From Olsenella massiliensis (GTDB lineage: Bacteria > Actinomycetota > Coriobacteriia > Coriobacteriales > Atopobiaceae), in contig NZ_LN898207.1 in NCBI RefSeq assembly GCF_001457795.1, positions 1-64,000 of the forward strand: DNA of 64,000 nt, written 5' to 3'. Each line of letters begins with the position of its first letter. Within the stretch, counting starts at the first letter, position 1. The notes below the pieces were generated by a model. That model worked only from the letters and a program-made list of their open reading frames with translations. It had not been told where the DNA came from and did no database searches. The position numbers and the translations under genes were made by a program. This document shows positions 36,433 through 55,128 of this stretch, piece by piece.

Positions 36433-36561
36433 GGGCCCCTTGACGGCCTGCGCCCGTCAGCGGTTTTCTCGGATGGATGCCGGGGATGCTCGGCACCCCC
36501 CGGCCAAAGTGTGCGTTACGAAGGCTAGCTTCTGCGTCTGCGCAGGATTTGATTATCAAGA

Positions 36562-36589
36562 CCCGTCCAAACGTACACGTTGGGACGGG
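36562..36589. terminator. hairpin between convergent glnA and mntP
   Basis: CCCGTCC (36562-36568) pairs with GGACGGG (36583-36589) around an inner stem AACGT/ACGTT with a 2-base loop and one A-G mismatch. It could stop transcription from both sides. No U-tract follows. Confidence 0.55.
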
Positions 36590-36597
36590 ACGCCCCG

Positions 36598-37179
36598 CTA
36601 CAGCCCCACGAAGGCCCTCACGCCGATAAGGACGAGGACGATGCCGCCCGTCACCTCGGCGCGCTCTCCCAGGAGGCAGCCGAGTCGCCTCCCGATGACG
36701 AGGGCGACGACGCAGCAGGCGAACGTGGTGAGGCCGATGACGCTCACCGCAAAGGGCAGGCTCACGACCTGCGCGCGCAGCGAGATGCCCACGGCAAAGG
36801 CGTCGATCGCGGTGGCGACGGCCTGGAACGTGAGCTGGGCCAGCGAGAGGTGCCGCACCGAGCCGTCCTCGTTGAGGCCGTTGGGGCACTCGGTTTCGCT
36901 GCGCAGCGCCTGCGTCCCCTCCTTGATCATGTTGCCGCCGATGACCAGGAGGATGACGAGCGTCACGACGCCGGAGTACCTCTCGATGAGCTCGGCGGCC
37001 ATGCCCCCCAGCAGGTAGCCTCCCAGGGGCATGAGCGCCTGAAACGCGCCAAAGAAGAGGGGCATCAGCATAAGCCGCCGCCGGCTCTCGTGGGCGTACG
37101 CGAAGGAGTTCGAGACGGTGACGGCGAAGGCGTCGGCAGAGAGCGCCAGGCCAAGAACGACGATGTCAGCAGGGCTCAT
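36598..37179 (-). CDS. mntP: manganese efflux pump MntP
   Basis: 193 residues from the ATG at 37179 (GGGAGGG just upstream). Six membrane helices are expected and seen. The paired conserved blocks LALSADAFAVTVSNSFAY and VATAIDAFAVGISLRA carry the membrane aspartates typical of MntP. It exports excess Mn(II). A loop of about 25 polar residues between helices 3 and 4 (ETECPNGLNEDGSVRH) is longer than usual. No yybP-ykoY Mn riboswitch could be recognised upstream. The Mn/Fe importer mntH lies at 51.1 kb. Confidence 0.88.
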   Translation of the reverse strand: MSPADIVVLGLALSADAFAVTVSNSFAYAHESRRRLMLMPLFFGAFQALMPLGGYLLGGMAAELIERYSGVVTLVILLVIGGNMIKEGTQALRSETECPNGLNEDGSVRHLSLAQLTFQAVATAIDAFAVGISLRAQVVSLPFAVSVIGLTTFACCVVALVIGRRLGCLLGERAEVTGGIVLVLIGVRAFVGL

Positions 37180-48213: not shown

Positions 48214-50085
48214 ATGGCAACGGCACGAGAGAAGGTGGCACGGTTCGGTAAGTTCTTATCGGGCATGGTCATGCCAAACATCGGCGCCTTCATCGCCTGG
48301 GGCTTCTTGACAGCCCTGTTCATCGAGACGGGTTGGATACCCAACGAGCAGCTGGCGACCGTCGTCGGCCCCATGCTCAAGTACTTCATCCCCGTGCTCA
48401 TCGCCGGCCAGGGCGGCTACGCCGTCGCCGGCAACCGCGGCAGGGTCATCGGCGGCATCGCCGTGTTCGGCGCCATCATGGGCAGCGACTACACCATGCT
48501 CATGGGCGCCATGCTCATGGGACCCTTGGCCGGCCTGGTCATCAAGAAGTGGGACGAGTGGGCTGACGGCTGGAAGCCCGAGGGCCTCGAGATGCTCGTC
48601 GACAACTTCTCGCTCGGCCTCATCGGCCTTGGCCTCGCCATCATCGGCTTCTTTGGCATCGGCCCCTTCATGGGCGCCATCCTCGTCGTGTTGCAGGCCG
48701 GCGTCCAGGCCCTTGTCAACCTTGGCCTGATGCCCCTGCTCGCCATCTTCATCGAGCCCGCCAAGGTGCTCTTCCTCAACAACGCCATCGGTAACGGCAT
48801 CTTTGTTCCCATCGGCACCGAGCAGGTCAAGTCCGTCGGCGAGTCCATCATGTTCATGCTGGAATCCAACCCCGGGCCTGGCGTCGGCATGCTCCTTGCC
48901 TATGCCGTGCTCTGCCGTGACAAGGACACGAAGCAGTCCGCGCCGGGCGCCATCATCATCCAGTTTTTGGGCGGCATCCACGAGATCTACTTCCCGTACG
49001 TGCTCATGAACCCCCGCGTCATCATTGGCCCCATCGCCGGCAACATCGTCGCGATCCTGTTCTCGGTCATCTTTGGGCTCGGCCTCGTCGGCCCCGCCTC
49101 GCCCGGCTCCATCATCGCGTTTGTCTCCATGTCGCCCAAGAGCCAGGTCCTGCTCATCCTCGTGGACGTCATCCTTGCCGCCGCGGTCTCCTTCTTCGTG
49201 TCGGCACCCTTTGTCCGCAGCTACGTCGCCGTCGGGTCCGACGATGACGTCGACGGCCAGGGAGCCATCGACGCAGGGTCCGCCGTTGACCCCACCGCAG
49301 GCGCGGCGAGCGCCGTCTCGAAGATCGTCTTTGCGTGCGACGCCGGCATGGGGTCTTCCGCCATGGGCGCGACGCGCTTCTTCCGGCGCGTCAAGGAGAT
49401 CCGCCCCGACATCAAGGTCGAGCATGCCTCCGTGGACGAGATTCCCTCCGACGCCGACGTCATCGTCTGCCAGAAGATGCTCGCCGAGCGGGCTCGCAAG
49501 GCCGCCCCTCAGACCGCGCAGTTCGTCGTCATCGGCAACTTCATGAACGACCCCGCGCTCGACGCTCTGCAGACCCAGCTCACCACCAACGTGCAGATGC
49601 AGCACGCCGCCGTCGCGGCCACCAACGCCGCGTCGGCAGCCATCGAGGGCGCCGGCGGGGAGGCCGCCTGGAACATCGGCGCCGCTGACGTCTCTCTTGG
49701 CAACGTCGCCGCCGACAGGGAGTCTGCCATCCGCGCCTGCGGGGCGATGCTCGTCAAACGCGGCTACGTGGACGAGGCCTATGTTGACGCCATGGTCGAG
49801 CGCGACCGCGAGGTGAGCGTCTACATTGGCAACGGCGTCGCCATCCCGCACGGCACCAACGAGGCAAAGAGGCACGTCAAGTCCACGGGCGTCGTCGCGA
49901 TGCAGTTCCCTGAGGGCATTGACTTCAACGGCGAGAAGGCCTACGTGCTCTTTGGCATCGCCGGCAAGGGCGACGAGCATCTGCAGGTTCTCGCCAAGAT
50001 CGCCGACGCGCTGTCCGACGAGACGCGTGCCGACAAGCTCCGCACCGTCACGGACGTGACGTCATTCCTCAAGGTCCTGGGGTAA
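48214..50085 (+). CDS. mtlA: PTS mannitol-type EIICBA, all domains in one protein
   Basis: 623 residues. Domain order C-B-A as in E. coli MtlA. The EIIC part (1-335) has the GGIHEIYFPYVLMNPR loop, with the essential glutamate at residue 257, the same number as in E. coli. The EIIB phospho-cysteine is C375 in FACDAGMGSSAMGATRF, and the EIIA phospho-histidine is H546 in VAIPHGTNEAK. This strongly suggests mannitol or a close hexitol as substrate, giving the hexitol 1-phosphate. It is divergent from fruK and the dehydrogenase. The usual mtlD and mtlF/mtlR genes are absent. Confidence 0.94.
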   Translation: MATAREKVARFGKFLSGMVMPNIGAFIAWGFLTALFIETGWIPNEQLATVVGPMLKYFIPVLIAGQGGYAVAGNRGRVIGGIAVFGAIMGSDYTMLMGAMLMGPLAGLVIKKWDEWADGWKPEGLEMLVDNFSLGLIGLGLAIIGFFGIGPFMGAILVVLQAGVQALVNLGLMPLLAIFIEPAKVLFLNNAIGNGIFVPIGTEQVKSVGESIMFMLESNPGPGVGMLLAYAVLCRDKDTKQSAPGAIIIQFLGGIHEIYFPYVLMNPRVIIGPIAGNIVAILFSVIFGLGLVGPASPGSIIAFVSMSPKSQVLLILVDVILAAAVSFFVSAPFVRSYVAVGSDDDVDGQGAIDAGSAVDPTAGAASAVSKIVFACDAGMGSSAMGATRFFRRVKEIRPDIKVEHASVDEIPSDADVIVCQKMLAERARKAAPQTAQFVVIGNFMNDPALDALQTQLTTNVQMQHAAVAATNAASAAIEGAGGEAAWNIGAADVSLGNVAADRESAIRACGAMLVKRGYVDEAYVDAMVERDREVSVYIGNGVAIPHGTNEAKRHVKSTGVVAMQFPEGIDFNGEKAYVLFGIAGKGDEHLQVLAKIADALSDETRADKLRTVTDVTSFLKVLG

Positions 50086-50198
50086 TAAGGCCCTAGGGCA
50101 GCAAGGCCCTGGGGTGGCAAAGGCGCAGGGCGTGGTCCTTCCGGGACTGGGCACCGAACCAGTCCCGGATCGACCTCAGGTCGGTCCCGATCCAGCGA

Positions 50199-50316
50199 GC
50201 GCCACGCCGCAAGAAAGCGCCACGCTGCAAGAAAGCGCCACGCTGCAAGAAAGCGTCGCGCGGCAAGAAAGCGTCGCGCTGCAAGAAAGCGCCACGCGGC
50301 AAGAAAGCGCCACGCT
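50199..50316. repeat. 18-bp tandem repeat, six copies plus a partial
   Basis: Units of the type GCGCCACGCTGCAAGAAA run from 50199 to 50306, with a partial seventh. Copies differ at a few positions (GCGTCGCGCGGCAAGAAA). It lies in the 1-kb gene-free stretch 50086-51101 after mtlA. Open frames across it read as hexapeptide repeats on either strand, and no start or coding signal supports a gene. Confidence 0.95.
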
Positions 50317-50361
50317 AGAGCTAATAACTGATTGGCACCCTTGCACTCTGCGGTGCCCCAT

Positions 50362-50400
50362 ACGGGAGCGGCCGGTGGAAAGACCACGAGCCGCTCCCGT
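50362..50400 (+). terminator. terminator hairpin downstream of mtlA
   Basis: ACGGGAGCGGC (50362-50372) pairs perfectly with GCCGCTCCCGT (50390-50400), with a smaller inner stem GTGG/CCAC, followed by CTTT. It sits about 280 bases after the mtlA stop, beyond the tandem repeats. Confidence 0.65.
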
Positions 50401-50564
50401 CTTTGCGCTGCTTGCCACGTCGCGCCTTTCGGCGCGAAACGGCGCGACGCAAAATGTCTACTGAAGCCGTCAGCAATCCGAAAATGACAGCGAAAAACCG
50501 ACCCGAGAACGACGCCAGAGTCAGTCCGGGAAGCGAGCCGGAAATCAACCCGGGGACTGCCCCC

Positions 50565-50628
50565 TGGCAAGCTGGCCCTTGGCAAGCTGGCCCTTGGCAA
50601 GCTGGCCCTTGGCAAGCTTCCCCTTGGC
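50565..50628. repeat. 15-bp tandem repeat, four copies
   Basis: TGGCAAGCTGGCCCT is repeated at 50565, 50580 and 50595 without change; the fourth copy (50610) has TCC for GGC near its end, and a partial copy follows. The repeat unit shares GGCAAG with the nearby 18-bp array. No coding function is evident. Confidence 0.95.
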
Positions 50629-50677
50629 GGCAGTCGCTACTCGACAGGCCGAAGGATACCTCTGAGACCACAATCCA

Positions 50678-50776
50678 GGAGATTATCAATGACCAAAACG
50701 GGGCTGTCCTGTCGCTAATTTTGCGTTTCCCCAGGATTCGCAAAATTAGTGACAGGACGCAGCGCTTCTGGTCATT
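50678..50776 (+). repeat. hairpin repeat family B, copy 1 (B1)
   Basis: A 99-bp element with outer arms AATGACCA (50688-50695) and TGGTCATT (50769-50776) and an inner 19-bp stem (50707-50725 with 50739-50757, one G-T wobble) around a 13-base loop. It matches copy B2 at 52836-52933 in the opposite orientation at about 73 of 99 positions, including an identical 24-base core (50716-50739). Confidence 0.9.
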
Positions 50777-50864
50777 AAATTCTGGACGCTGATGCACCTG
50801 GCTCCCTGGGCACCCGGCCCTCTGGGCGCCTGGGCACCTAACCACCCGGCGTCCGTACCTCTCG

Positions 50865-50942
50865 TTAGCCAAAACACGACGGACATATCAAAATATCGCT
50901 GAAATTGACCGCATTTTGTAATGTATGTCGTGTTTTGGCTAA
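50865..50942 (+). repeat. hairpin repeat family A, copy 1 (A1)
   Basis: A 78-bp element with perfect 16-bp terminal inverted repeats TTAGCCAAAACACGAC (50865-50880) and its complement (50927-50942). The inner arms also pair (ACATATCAAAAT with ATTTTGTAATGT, 10 of 12), so nearly the whole element folds into one hairpin. A second, inverted copy is at 52571-52646. It is much more AT-rich than its surroundings. Confidence 0.92.
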
Positions 50943-51101
50943 AGCGCCTCACACGACCATGTTGCGCTTGGCCGTGATGCCTGGAGTATCCTAGGCGCAT
51001 GAGGTCCGACCAAACGAGGCCCTGGCCCGGGAGGTCCCGGCCTAGAATGCCTTAAACCCGCAACCCCCGGCCGGAAGGCTCCCCCAATCCGAGAGGCACC
51101 T

Positions 51102-52394
51102 ATGCAATCCCCCGACAACTCCAGCGCCACGTCGCCCGCCGGTGGCCTCCTTCGCGAGATTTTTGGCAGCCACCACAGCGGACAGCGAGGCGGTCTTGAC
51201 ATCCTCAAGTTCATCGGCCCCGGATTTCTCGTGACCGTGGGCTTCATTGACCCGGGCAACTGGGCCAGCAACATGGCCGCAGGCTCAGCGTTTGGCTACT
51301 CCCTGCTCTGGGTGGTCACCCTATCCACCGTCATGCTCATCGTCCTGCAGCACAATGCCGCGCACCTGGGCATCGCCACCGGCCTGTGCATGAGCGAGGC
51401 CGCGACGCGCCACCTCCCCCGCTGGGTCTCGCGACCCGTGCTCCTCACAGCCGTGCTCGCGACCCTGGCAACCACCATGGCCGAGGTGCTGGGCGGTGCC
51501 ATCGCCCTCAACATGCTCGTTGGTCTCGACCTGCGCCTGGGCTCCGTTCTCGTGGGGACCGCGTCGCTCTCCCTGTTGCTGACCAACTCCTACCAGCGCG
51601 TCGAGCGCTGGATCATCGGCTTCGTGTCGCTCATCGGCATCTCGTTCCTCATAGAGCTGGCCCTCGTCAAGGTGAGCTGGGCGCCGGCCGCCGCCGGATG
51701 GGTGGTCCCCACCCTGCCCGGCGGGTCCATGCCTATCGTCATGAGCGTCCTGGGCGCCGTCGTTATGCCGCACAACCTCTTTTTGCACTCCGAGATCATC
51801 CAAAGTCGCCACTTTGAGACCAAGGGGGACGACGCCATCAGGGAGCGCATGGACTACGAGTTCACCGACACCCTGTTCTCCATGATCGTGGGCTGGGCCA
51901 TCAACTCCGCCATGGTCATCCTTGCCGCCGCCACATTCTTCCAGCACGGCATCCTCGTGGACGACCTCGCCCAGGCGGCGTCGGTGCTCGCGCCCATGGT
52001 CGGCCCCGCAGCGAGCCTCATCTTTGCCCTGGCCCTGCTCATGGCGGGACTTAGCTCCTCCGTCACCGCCGGCATGGCGGCGGGCACCATCACGGCAGGC
52101 ATGTCGGGCGAGCCGTACGACATCCGCGACCGTCACTCGTCGCTCGGCGTCATGGCCACCTTCGTGCTGGCGGTTGTAGCCATTTTCTTCGTGCGGGATG
52201 CCTTTGAGGGGCTCGTCTGGTCGCAGGCGCTGCTGTCCGTACAGCTGCCCGTCACGATAGTGCTGCTCATCTGGCTCACCTCGTCGCATCGGGTCATGGG
52301 ACGCTACGCCAACGGACCCTCCCTCAAGCTGGTCCTGTGGGCCATCGCGGCCATCGTCATCGCCCTCAATGTGATGCTGCTGCTCAACGTGTAG
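51102..52394 (+). CDS. mntH: Nramp-family divalent metal (Mn/Fe) transporter
   Basis: 430 residues, start preceded by GAGAGGCACC. It imports Mn(II) or Fe(II) with protons. The metal-site motif DPGN is at residues 50-53 (GFIDPGNWASNM), and the helix-6 motif is GAVVMPHNLFLHSEII with the conserved A and M ligands. Eleven hydrophobic segments are seen. The DPGN/A-x-x-M set is that of true transition-metal transporters. The gene stands alone and is flanked on both sides by hairpin repeats in mirror order. No MntR gene or obvious MntR/DtxR box was recognised nearby. Confidence 0.95.
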   Translation: MQSPDNSSATSPAGGLLREIFGSHHSGQRGGLDILKFIGPGFLVTVGFIDPGNWASNMAAGSAFGYSLLWVVTLSTVMLIVLQHNAAHLGIATGLCMSEAATRHLPRWVSRPVLLTAVLATLATTMAEVLGGAIALNMLVGLDLRLGSVLVGTASLSLLLTNSYQRVERWIIGFVSLIGISFLIELALVKVSWAPAAAGWVVPTLPGGSMPIVMSVLGAVVMPHNLFLHSEIIQSRHFETKGDDAIRERMDYEFTDTLFSMIVGWAINSAMVILAAATFFQHGILVDDLAQAASVLAPMVGPAASLIFALALLMAGLSSSVTAGMAAGTITAGMSGEPYDIRDRHSSLGVMATFVLAVVAIFFVRDAFEGLVWSQALLSVQLPVTIVLLIWLTSSHRVMGRYANGPSLKLVLWAIAAIVIALNVMLLLNV

Positions 52395-52570
52395 GGCGCG
52401 TCGTGGCGCACCGTCGCACGCGAGCAGCCAAAGGGAGACGGGCCAGCCCCCCAGGCCACACGCGAGCTTCTAGACAAGTTGAATCGCACGCGCGGGCCGG
52501 TCGCGTCGCCCGGCGCACGGGCCGGACAGCCCGCCGCTCCGGGCGACCTACTGGTGCGCGTCGGACGCCG

Positions 52571-52646
52571 TAGCCAAAACACGACATTCGTTACAAAAAA
52601 CGGCAAAAACCGGCAATATTTTGATACGTTCGTCGTGTTCTGGCTA
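52571..52646 (-). repeat. hairpin repeat family A, copy 2 (A2), inverted
   Basis: TAGCCAAAACACGAC (52571-52585) pairs with GTCGTGTTCTGGCTA (52632-52646) with one mismatch. The 46-base interior matches the reverse complement of A1 at 33 positions, with an identical ATATTTTGAT block, so this copy is inverted relative to A1. A small inner stem CGG/CCG is also present. Confidence 0.9.
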
Positions 52647-52835
52647 ATGAAGGCGAGGGTGTCACGACACGGAGGGCGCTATGGCGCTGATTGACGCGGC
52701 ATGATCCCCGCCGGCAGCACGAATCGGGCAGCCCGGCGCGGGCAGCTCGACACAGGCAACCCGGCGCGGGCACCAGGGTCCGCGCCGGAGCCCACGCCGG
52801 TGGCGCGCTGGAGCCCACACCAGAGGCGCGATGCT

Positions 52836-52933
52836 AATGACCAGAAACACTCAATTTTGGCACTAGTTTTTTGAATCCTGGGGAAACGCAAAATTACTGA
52901 CAAAAAGCTCGCGCCGATGTCATTGATAATTCC
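52836..52933 (-). repeat. hairpin repeat family B, copy 2 (B2), inverted
   Basis: It aligns with B1 only when reverse-complemented: AATGACCAGAA at 52836-52846, the 24-base core at 52873-52896, and the TTATCAATGAC-type end at 52919-52930. The stems are less perfect than in B1. Between A2 and B2 (52647-52835) are short GC-rich near-repeats (CCCGGCGCGGGCA twice; GGAGCCCAC twice). No gene is seen in 52395-52977. Confidence 0.85.
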
Positions 52934-52977
52934 TGGGATACAGCTGCAACTGTAGCCTCCGGCTGCCAGGGCCGACC

Positions 52978-55128
52978 CTATGCCAGCAGCCTGCGCCCCA
53001 GCGCCCCTCGCACGATCGCGGAGCAGCACAGGTACGTGACAAGCAGGTACCCCCCATAGACCACGACGACAATGCCGACGGCGAGCGACACGGGAACGAG
53101 GGGCGAGACGCCAAGGGCCGAGAACAGGTTGCGGTTCATGACCCAGATGACGCAGGCCGTATGGCAGAGCGCAAGTGCCAGCGGCACCAGGAAGTACAGG
53201 AGCGTCTGGGTGCGCACGCTTCCCAGGACCTGCCTCCTTGTGCAGCCGAGCTGCGCGAGCGTGCGATAGCGCCCCACCGAGTCGACCGTGGACGAGAGCT
53301 GCTGCACGGCCAGCACGGACCCCGCCGACACGAGCAGGACGAATCCCAGGTAGAGCGCGAGGAAGGTGATGAGCATCTTGAAGCCGAGCGCCTCCGTGCG
53401 CGTGGAGCTGGCCGAGTCCGCGAAGCTCAGCGGCCAACGCCCCGTTCCATAGTCATACCCCTCTCGAAGGTCCTCCTCGGAAGGCGGGAGAGCCTCGGCA
53501 AACGCCTTCTCCATGAGCGCCTCTGCCTGGTCGGCATCGACGCCGTCCGCATATCGCACGTTGAGGATGCTCGTGTCGGGCAGGCCCCTGGTGGCACGCA
53601 GCGCGTCGATGACGTCGTCGGGCACGACGAGGACGCACTGCACGTCGGGCAGCTGCGTCACCCGAAGCACCTGGCGCACGAGCTGGCGCGACGACCTGAG
53701 CTCGACGCCCCCCACGCGCAGCGTCCCCCCGTAGGACGAGACCGCCTCGGACAGGCCCTTGGTGAGGTCAAGGCAGTTGTCCACGGCGTAGGTGCCCGCA
53801 GGCAGCGTCACCGGAGGATGCCCCGACAGGGCGCGCGTGGCGTTGAGCTGGCTCACACCGATGACGGAGACGCCGTAGCGCAGGAGGGTGGCATCCTTGC
53901 CCAGCGCCGAAGACTCGACGTCGTAGCCCACCGTCTGCGCCAGCTTACCCCCCGTGAGGTCGGGATCCGACCATATGTCCACCTGGGCGCTCTGACTCAC
54001 CAGCTCGCGCCAGGTGGCGGAACGAGTCGCAAAGTAATCCGCCGCGCTCCAGTTTGAGGCGTCAAGCCGCTCGCGCGCGTCCTGGGCCCTGTCGGTGTAC
54101 TGGTCGAGGTCGGCAAAATGAAACATGGGCGCGACGATGGAGTGGTCAAACTGCGTCCCCTCCTCGAGGGCCGAGGAGAGCACCGAGGACACGCCCATGC
54201 CCACCGAGAACGACGTGACGCCAAAGAAGAGCAGCACGCACACGATCCAGAGCGAGACGAAGGCCGTGTTGATGCGAGAGGCGAGCTGGCGCATCGTGAA
54301 CGGTGACAGTCCCCTCAGATAGAGGCCGCGCGTGCGTCGCACGATGCCGACGACAAGGCCCGCCACCGAGGACACGAACAGCAGGGAGCCCACGAGCATG
54401 AGCGCCGTCGCGGCGGAGAACTTGGCATCGGTCACGTCAAGGAGGCCGTTGAGGGCCAGCAGCCTGTAGGCGTACGCCAACAGCGCGACGCTCGCCACGA
54501 AGCACAGCGCCGAGGGCAGCACCCCGCGCACGCCCACCCGCTCTGACGCGCTGCGAGCGGACAGGAGCGTCGCCAGCCGGCAGCGACTCACCTCAATGAC
54601 ATTGAGGACGCCCACCACGACGAATATGACGGCAAAGCACAGAACGGTACGGCCGAGCGCGGTCGATGACAGCACGAAGCGGTAGGAGGAGAGGTCAAGC
54701 GAGAACATCGACATGCTCGCAAAGCACAGGAGCTGCGAGAGCACGACGCCCAGGGCGAGGCCCGCCGCGAGCGAGGAGAGCCCCACGAGAGCGGTCTCGA
54801 GAAGGACGATGCCCGCAACCTGGCGCGCCTTCATGCCCAGCAGGAGGTAGGTGCCAAGCTCATGCTTGCGGCGGCGAAGGATGAAGCGGTTGGAGTACGC
54901 CACCAGAAAGCCGAGCACGCACGCCACGGCCACCGAGAAGAAGGCCATCACGCGGTCGATGGTGGCGACCATGTCCGGGTTGCTGGCGTTGACGTCGGTC
55001 ATGAGGCGCTGGTCGGCGATAGAGTTGAAGGCGTAGAACACCATGACGCCCAGCAGGAGCGTCACAAAGTAGATGGTGTAGTCCCGGGCGCTGCGGCGCA
55101 CGTTTCTGACGGCGAGCCTAGCCAACAT
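52978..55128 (-). CDS. BceB-like ABC transporter permease (FtsX domains)
   Basis: 716 residues from the ATG at 55128 (MLARLAVRNVRRSARDYTIY, the typical BceB start). About ten membrane helices: one, then pairs, with FtsX blocks RRRKHELGTYLLLGMKARQV and TLAQLGCTRRQVLGSVRTQT. A large extracellular domain of roughly 220 residues lies between helices 7 and 8, the part that binds peptide antibiotics in BceB. It overlaps the end of the ATPase gene by 11 bases. With the ATPase and the two-component system it forms a BceRSAB-type module. Confidence 0.92.
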   Translation of the reverse strand: MLARLAVRNVRRSARDYTIYFVTLLLGVMVFYAFNSIADQRLMTDVNASNPDMVATIDRVMAFFSVAVACVLGFLVAYSNRFILRRRKHELGTYLLLGMKARQVAGIVLLETALVGLSSLAAGLALGVVLSQLLCFASMSMFSLDLSSYRFVLSSTALGRTVLCFAVIFVVVGVLNVIEVSRCRLATLLSARSASERVGVRGVLPSALCFVASVALLAYAYRLLALNGLLDVTDAKFSAATALMLVGSLLFVSSVAGLVVGIVRRTRGLYLRGLSPFTMRQLASRINTAFVSLWIVCVLLFFGVTSFSVGMGVSSVLSSALEEGTQFDHSIVAPMFHFADLDQYTDRAQDARERLDASNWSAADYFATRSATWRELVSQSAQVDIWSDPDLTGGKLAQTVGYDVESSALGKDATLLRYGVSVIGVSQLNATRALSGHPPVTLPAGTYAVDNCLDLTKGLSEAVSSYGGTLRVGGVELRSSRQLVRQVLRVTQLPDVQCVLVVPDDVIDALRATRGLPDTSILNVRYADGVDADQAEALMEKAFAEALPPSEEDLREGYDYGTGRWPLSFADSASSTRTEALGFKMLITFLALYLGFVLLVSAGSVLAVQQLSSTVDSVGRYRTLAQLGCTRRQVLGSVRTQTLLYFLVPLALALCHTACVIWVMNRNLFSALGVSPLVPVSLAVGIVVVVYGGYLLVTYLCCSAIVRGALGRRLLA

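Follow-up and report, generated by a model that had tools for sequence, protein, structure and literature searches.

A hairpin family found beside mntH in Olsenella massiliensis is widespread in Coriobacteriia and frames a fast-evolving predicted nuclease gene

Introduction

Among the closest described counterparts of the system reported here are the REPtrons (TnpAREP/RAYT with REP/BIME), in which a gene is framed by inverted palindromes and solo copies of these palindromes are dispersed; the palindromes measure 20-40 nt, their stems differ between species, and a conserved GTAG tag lies beside the stem (PMC8266576, PMC3733652). The CGTC-tagged REPs, from five other phyla, are REP-sized and carry their tag at one end, with no dedicated transposase (PMC3733652). 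MITEs such as Correia elements and ERIC are short, gene-less intergenic palindromes with conserved ends. Free-standing EDxHD homing endonucleases, I-Bth0305I being an example, are selfish single-gene units of patchy distribution (PMC3943268).

The current study concerns the first 64 kb of contig 9 (106.5 kb) of the Olsenella massiliensis genome (1.82 Mb, 13 contigs), and this stretch of 64,000 nucleotides is termed the window. Within it, mntH stands between two nested pairs of hairpin elements, A on the inside and B on the outside. B belongs to a hairpin family that is widespread in Coriobacteriia, where it frames a fast-evolving predicted nuclease gene. We infer that this hairpin-framed gene is mobile, and it is probably a selfish element.

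The B system is organized like a REPtron or a MITE system, yet it is not a member of the REPtrons, because the genome has no Y1 transposase and because the tag, its position, and the size of the palindromes all differ. As in REPtrons, inverted palindromes frame a gene while solo copies are dispersed (a complete unit on contig C11 plus six solo B copies in this genome; a framing pair plus two solo copies in the genome G092), and a short conserved tag accompanies stems that vary from species to species. Unlike in REPtrons, the enzyme is not a HuH Y1 protein, since the framed protein matches MTES_1575/DUF559 only; the hairpins measure 80-200 nt; and the conserved TCCTGGGCAAACG/ACCTGCGGTTTTG is located in the loop, with no GTAG beside the stem. 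A search of this genome for the Y1 HuH transposase (PF01797) yielded no match, the controls being positive, and a RAYT was rejected as the mobilizer for this reason. The CGTC-tagged REPs share with the B hairpins their dispersal without a Y1 transposase, but no framed nuclease is known among them (PMC3733652), whereas a predicted one is present here. A literature search for Coriobacteriia palindromes in combination with a nuclease found no description in what is a limited searchable literature, and a hairpin family framing a nuclease gene in this class is apparently undescribed.

Results and discussion

The hairpins around mntH belong to dispersed families

Recomputed repeats and covariance models confirmed that two repeat families occur in the order B-A-mntH-A'-B', at nearly the coordinates given in a preliminary description of this DNA (Table 1). 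In that description, the second copies were said to align only as reverse complements. This holds for B1 and B2, which are truly inverted (81% identity over the matched 67 nt), but not for A, as A1 matches both the reversed A2 (82% identity, repeats recomputed in the window) and the direct A2 (70%). Because A is a near-perfect palindrome, the orientation of its copies says little; B is a palindrome with an asymmetric core, GAATCCTGGGGAAACG. Each element was also said to occur twice and only at this site, which is correct for the window but not for the genome, where covariance models give 13 A hairpins and 8 B hairpins, the latter consisting of two framing and six solo copies. About nine further hairpins in the genome, termed C, carry the loop of B (CGAATCCTGGGCAAACG) on an unrelated stem. 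One C-type hairpin, which had previously been missed, lies in the window.

Table 1. Positions of the hairpins, of mntH, and of the complete units (window coordinates unless a contig or locus is named)
Feature	Position	Strand	Details
C-type hairpin	36465..36605 (ends approximate)	-	B loop AAATCCTGCGCAGACG at 36535-36550; stem different
B1, solo B hairpin	50681..50783	-	covariance model, 99.7 bits; single-stranded DNA fold z -8.25
B1 loop core GAATCCTGGGGAAACG	50724-50739	-	core directed away from mntH
A1, A hairpin, 80 nt	50864..50943	.	covariance model, 86.4 bits; single-stranded DNA fold z -9.7
A1 ends	TTAGCCAAAACACGAC/GTCGTGTTTTGGCTAA		strand arbitrary, element near-palindromic
mntH, bracketed gene	51102..52394	+	Nramp-type metal transporter, 430 aa; Pfam PF01566, E 1.9e-109
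A2, A hairpin	52569..52648	.	covariance model, 85.0 bits; single-stranded DNA fold z -4.6
B2, decayed solo B copy	52829..52931	+	covariance model, 91.2 bits; single-stranded DNA fold z 0.13
B2 loop core	52873-52888	+	inverted relative to B1
Complete unit of this genome	C11:101788-103842		near-identical B hairpins as ends
Framed unit, Collinsella sp. An2	L152		same protein family inside
Framed unit, G092	contig 7		same protein family inside

Next to C, A is found with a common spacer at C13:37.3k, 468.5k, and 500.0k, and next to B it is found at mntH; A and B/C are thus associated. A forms a dispersed hairpin family of its own, with a tendency to adjoin B or C. No parent gene or mobilizer of A was found, and C is likewise without a known parent gene. 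Both A and B are located between genes, whatever the orientation of these genes, and some of the gene pairs are apparently divergent (the gene calls are approximate). In the B alignment, compensatory changes, which affect both sides of paired positions, exceed those in shuffles and in slid controls. Two segments of C13, at about 468.3-468.8k and 499.8-500.3k, are inverted copies of a several-hundred-bp block comprising a terminator, C, A, and GC-rich repeats; one copy lies just 3' of an rpsI-like gene, and the pair, 31 kb apart, could support inversion of the intervening segment.

Inverted hairpin pairs frame one protein family

Outside mntH, we inspected three inverted pairs of loop cores that stand close together (about 2 kb at most), and each frames a single gene from the same unnamed protein family (Table 1). 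In the present genome, the ends of the C11 unit belong to the B family and form a 177-nt inverted match with a score of 142, compared to at most 15 in shuffles; the six solo B copies are located elsewhere. This genome also encodes a distant copy of the protein family, at C13:792601, which has no such flanks. According to the preliminary description, scattering of A and B without mirrored pairing would have reduced the mntH arrangement to chance. The scattering is real, but there is a second mirrored pair of B hairpins, and what it encloses is the predicted nuclease gene and not a further ordinary gene.

By profile search, the protein family was found in 111 of the 122 genomes sampled from the taxonomic family, with up to 16 copies per genome. 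We compared 70 family genes, taken by protein similarity, with 86 control genes from the same taxonomic family. Inverted matching flanks with a score of at least 18 are present at 29/70 family genes and 1/86 controls (Fisher P about 3e-11, the effective number being somewhat smaller because two of the 70 were found via hairpins and a few are mutually close), and the figures at a score of at least 25 are 19/70 and 0/86. Excluding the two hairpin-found genes leaves 27/68 at the lower threshold. Framing is not universal, as 41 of the 70 genes have no significant inverted pair, and a few of the pairs (L273, L282, L227) resemble other repeats or terminators. The best framing pairs are about 125-200 nt in length and stand 15-390 nt from the gene, while the loops of framing hairpins carry variants of ACCTGCGGTTTTG or TCCTGSGCAAACG; the strict loop motif occurs in the flanks of 24/70 family genes versus 3/86 controls. 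Single hairpins beside genes were dropped as evidence, since 37% of the control genes have one (32/86, score at least 20). A second conserved word, GAGTATC/GATACTC, located in the inner stem, can be observed beside the loop in the nuclease-framing hairpins L208, L210, L212, L214, and L222 and is missing in B.

Comparisons between genomes bear upon both the putative spread and the persistence of these units. In G092, two solo hairpins have the outer stem of the framing pair, TGGCACAGATTTCGGG, with mid-stems that differ and are compensated. Between ffh and trmH, a complete unit is present in G079 alone, whereas seven congeners with the same neighbors are without it: the two genes are almost adjacent in G122, G096, and G011, only hairpins are found in G058, and another gene occupies the gap in G106, G071, and G041. 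Alignment gave neither an exact empty site nor a target duplication, and the ffh-trmH site did not align at the level of single bases. At the 3' end of purB, the nuclease gene is found in six genomes from two genera (L208, L209, L210, L214, L215, L216), with wholly different stems and with nucleases sharing 40-50% protein identity, even though the PurB proteins are 84-90% identical. Its presence there in two genera means that a unit can stay for long, and suggests a long vertical residence during which stem and protein change quickly. The ffh-trmH gap of G058 (L242) contains two more unrelated long hairpins, one of them TGTGTCATGGGGACTTATAATTTGACACACTC, which hint at further hairpin families in these genomes, and in G092 (L245) imperfect repeats around GGAAAGGAAAA..CCGAGTTGTGCG form an array downstream of ffh, with copies in either orientation.

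The loop is conserved across Coriobacteriia and the stems are genome-specific

Of 121 genomes from the taxonomic family, 28 contain the loop-core pattern with at most one mismatch, giving 59 matches in total, compared to a single match for the reversed pattern; some single matches fall in coding sequence and are probably due to chance. Many matches form the apex of long hairpins, whose stems are common within a genome and unrelated between genomes, and the class-wide loop is either TCCTGGGCAAACG or ACCTGCGGTTTTG. Within the genus, the loop of B is found inside another stem in G002, and A-like ends (CTTAGCCA...TGGCTAAG) are found with another stem in G004. Among the GTDB species genomes (genome_contigs), a shorter core, CGAATCCTGSGCAAACG(C), has 46 hits, and by inspection its near-perfect long stems occur in Coriobacteriia only; the genomes with long hairpins around the core include Collinsella sp. 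An2, Collinsella ihumii, Olsenella sp. An293, and an uncultured Coriobacteriaceae, and the hits outside the class look like chance. The A-pair pattern has no match in genome_contigs or viral_contigs. In viral_contigs, the B/C core ATCCTGGGSAAACGYAAA also has no match, and none of the three hits of the shorter core has a long hairpin. Two resemblances of the loop were discarded: a CsrA-type loop (CAGGAT, other strand), as a conservation of 16 nt exceeds its need, and the tRNA T-arm (CGAATCC), since this is the least conserved part of the loop.

The pattern of conservation bears upon the nature of the hairpins. One reading is that a DDE-type IS (IS630/mariner-like, with a TA target), since lost from the genome, left A, B, and C behind as its classic MITEs, in which case the framing of the nuclease gene would be a coincidence or the gene would be cargo. 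Like Correia elements and ERIC, they are small, gene-less intergenic palindromes with conserved ends, and the ends of A, TTAG...CTAA, fit a TA duplication. However, this reading predicts neither a class-wide loop with changing ends nor that, in many genera, different stems should frame one protein family again and again. Unlike in MITEs, it is the loop that is conserved between genera and not the ends, and the putative driver is no DDE transposase. Around the B copies, inverted ends are present and no target duplication was seen by eye. We therefore consider a MITE origin very improbable.

It is also conceivable that common regulatory structures of intergenic DNA (bidirectional terminators or mRNA-stabilizing or insulating elements) have turned repetitive and given rise to these hairpins, and that they insulate or attenuate mntH and silence a toxic nuclease gene. 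The intergenic location of A and B, their strong single-strand folds, and their compensatory changes would all agree with such a role, as would the strong single hairpins that flank control genes too. At mntH, A1, A2, and B1 are far above shuffles in single-stranded DNA folding, and B2 shows no gain over shuffles (Table 1). A scan of 50000-53000 for intrinsic terminators found two sites, one of them inside B1, versus 1.7 in shuffles, which is the chance level, and no GC-rich stem with a U-tract beyond chance was found at the mntH hairpins. An Rfam scan of the whole window gave no match, and thus no riboswitch. Moreover, termination requires neither a class-wide loop nor genome-specific outer stems on dispersed copies, and A and B are not restricted to particular gene orientations (approximate gene calls). 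A regulatory origin is consequently rather unlikely. The same results lend no support to the earlier suggestion of paired hairpins that insulate mntH and are old and maintained: the divergence of the copies had been taken as a sign of maintenance, but B2 has not been kept as a hairpin.

The framed protein is likely a nuclease

The C-terminal half of the framed protein weakly matches REase_MTES_1575/DUF559 and I-Bth0305I. With Pfam, 7 of 32 members match REase_MTES_1575 (best 5.9e-6) and two match DUF559 (1.6e-3), all below the Pfam cut-offs. In the PDB, the only match, and a weak one (E 0.0064, extending over 55 residues), is to 3r3p, 'Mobile intron protein', which we take to be the EDxHD homing endonuclease I-Bth0305I. 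Throughout the 32-member alignment, SPxE, D, and H positions are without variation and an E(Y) is almost so; E207, D252, and H274 are invariant in the family alignment, and E267 is conserved to at least 90%. NCBIfam has no model for the family, PADLOC and PHROGs returned one stray match each, and a profile search of viral contigs found no match. An AlphaFold model of the An2 protein, made from the single sequence, reached a pLDDT of 41, too low for a fold search. Judging by its sequence, the framed protein is likely a nuclease with a predicted PD-(D/E)XK/EDxHD-type half.

The framed genes resemble free-standing EDxHD homing endonucleases (PMC3943268) in this weak C-terminal match, which is one of sequence only, as well as in forming probably selfish single-gene units of patchy distribution. 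The presence/absence at ffh-trmH would agree with copying into an uninterrupted recognition site. Unlike homing endonucleases, they involve no intron or intein, they are framed by two complete hairpins with no split target, and they have many paralogs per genome.

Based upon these features, a complete element would comprise one fast-evolving predicted-nuclease gene and two inverted framing hairpins of 100-200 nt. The outer stem would be genome-specific and common to both ends and to the solo copies, the mid-stem would drift with compensating changes, and the loop would be class-wide. Presumably, the nuclease recognizes the hairpin by its outer stem and loop, either as an extruded cruciform or as single-stranded DNA, and cuts there. 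Through repair or recombination, new sites could then acquire a copy of the hairpin alone or of the entire framed gene, and the element would spread as homing endonucleases or REPtrons do. We tentatively propose, as a possibility that falls somewhat short of probable, that a PD-(D/E)XK/EDxHD-type nuclease, and neither a transposase nor a recombinase, as the driver defines a categorically new class of bacterial mobile element, in which the conserved loop of rapidly changing palindromes is recognized, enzyme and stem co-evolve in each Coriobacteriia lineage, and non-autonomous hairpins spread along. The protein family, with matches in 111/122 genomes, has no NCBIfam model and only sub-threshold Pfam matches. 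Should it prove to drive the hairpins, a large gene family so far without explanation would turn out to be a selfish element with a testable substrate. The presumed target of each gene would stand on both its sides, and the system would provide a nuclease-driven counterpart to the REPtron and a natural system for the study of nuclease-target co-evolution.

Separate insertions most likely account for the mntH bracket

With regard to mntH, B1 and B2 would be solo, non-autonomous copies of the end hairpins of an element whose complete copy in this genome is the C11 unit. The joint reading, which we consider moderately probable, is that B1 and B2 are solo end hairpins of the nuclease element, A is separate, and the bracket stems from independent hairpin insertions into two long, repeat-rich intergenic gaps.

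The nested double bracket is unusual, and rare under a simple null. In a crude placement simulation with 1,600 junctions, 6 solo B, and 13 A, any gene would have B on both sides with a chance of about 2% and A on both sides with a chance of about 10%. Both brackets would fall on one gene with a chance of about 0.2%, the co-location of A with B/C being allowed for; these statistics are post hoc, as the pattern was noticed before the test, and long gaps between genes, for example those of 1.0 and 0.6 kb at mntH, are given too little weight in the placement model. This rarity is one of several points favoring a cassette, in which the inverted B pair moved or inverts mntH as a passenger replacing the nuclease and A is a nested pair. 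The layout and size (about 2.2 kb) are like those of the C11 unit, and cores pointing outward, as at mntH, are also found in some nuclease units (L222, L225). Furthermore, two mntH orthologs within the genus (76% identity; G001, G002) have other neighbors, and two of five genus genomes encode distant mntH paralogs only. However, the matched parts of B1 and B2 differ by about 19% and B2 is decayed, in contrast to the near-identity of the two C11 ends. Partnerless solo B copies exist, neither a second mntH unit nor an empty site was found, and the core orientation is opposite to that of the C11, An2, G092, G058, and G079 units. We regard the cassette as decidedly unlikely. The preliminary description had suggested a mobilized or invertible cassette, and the idea of mobility is partly apt, as the B copies at mntH are solo versions of hairpins which, on C11 and in other Coriobacteriia, form inverted pairs around the nuclease gene. 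There is no sign that the 2.25-kb mntH unit itself moves or inverts, given the scattered solo B copies and the absence of A or B flanks at the two orthologs.

Since B2 is unfolded and the mntH orthologs are without the bracket, the latter is most likely a by-product of separate hairpin insertions into repeat-rich intergenic DNA. Separate insertions are also the simplest account in view of the decay of B2 and the results of the terminator and riboswitch searches, and mntH would then be a bystander, neither a regulatory nor a mobile unit in its own right.

The long gaps on either side of mntH are full of tandem repeats. In the gap before mntH, an 18-nt GC-rich repeat, AGCGCCACGCTGCAAGAA, occurs about seven times at 50198-50341 and a 15-nt GC-rich repeat, CTGGCCCTTGGCAAG, four times at 50557-50631, and similar short tandem repeats are also present beside other A, B, or C copies (L004, L006, L010, L042).
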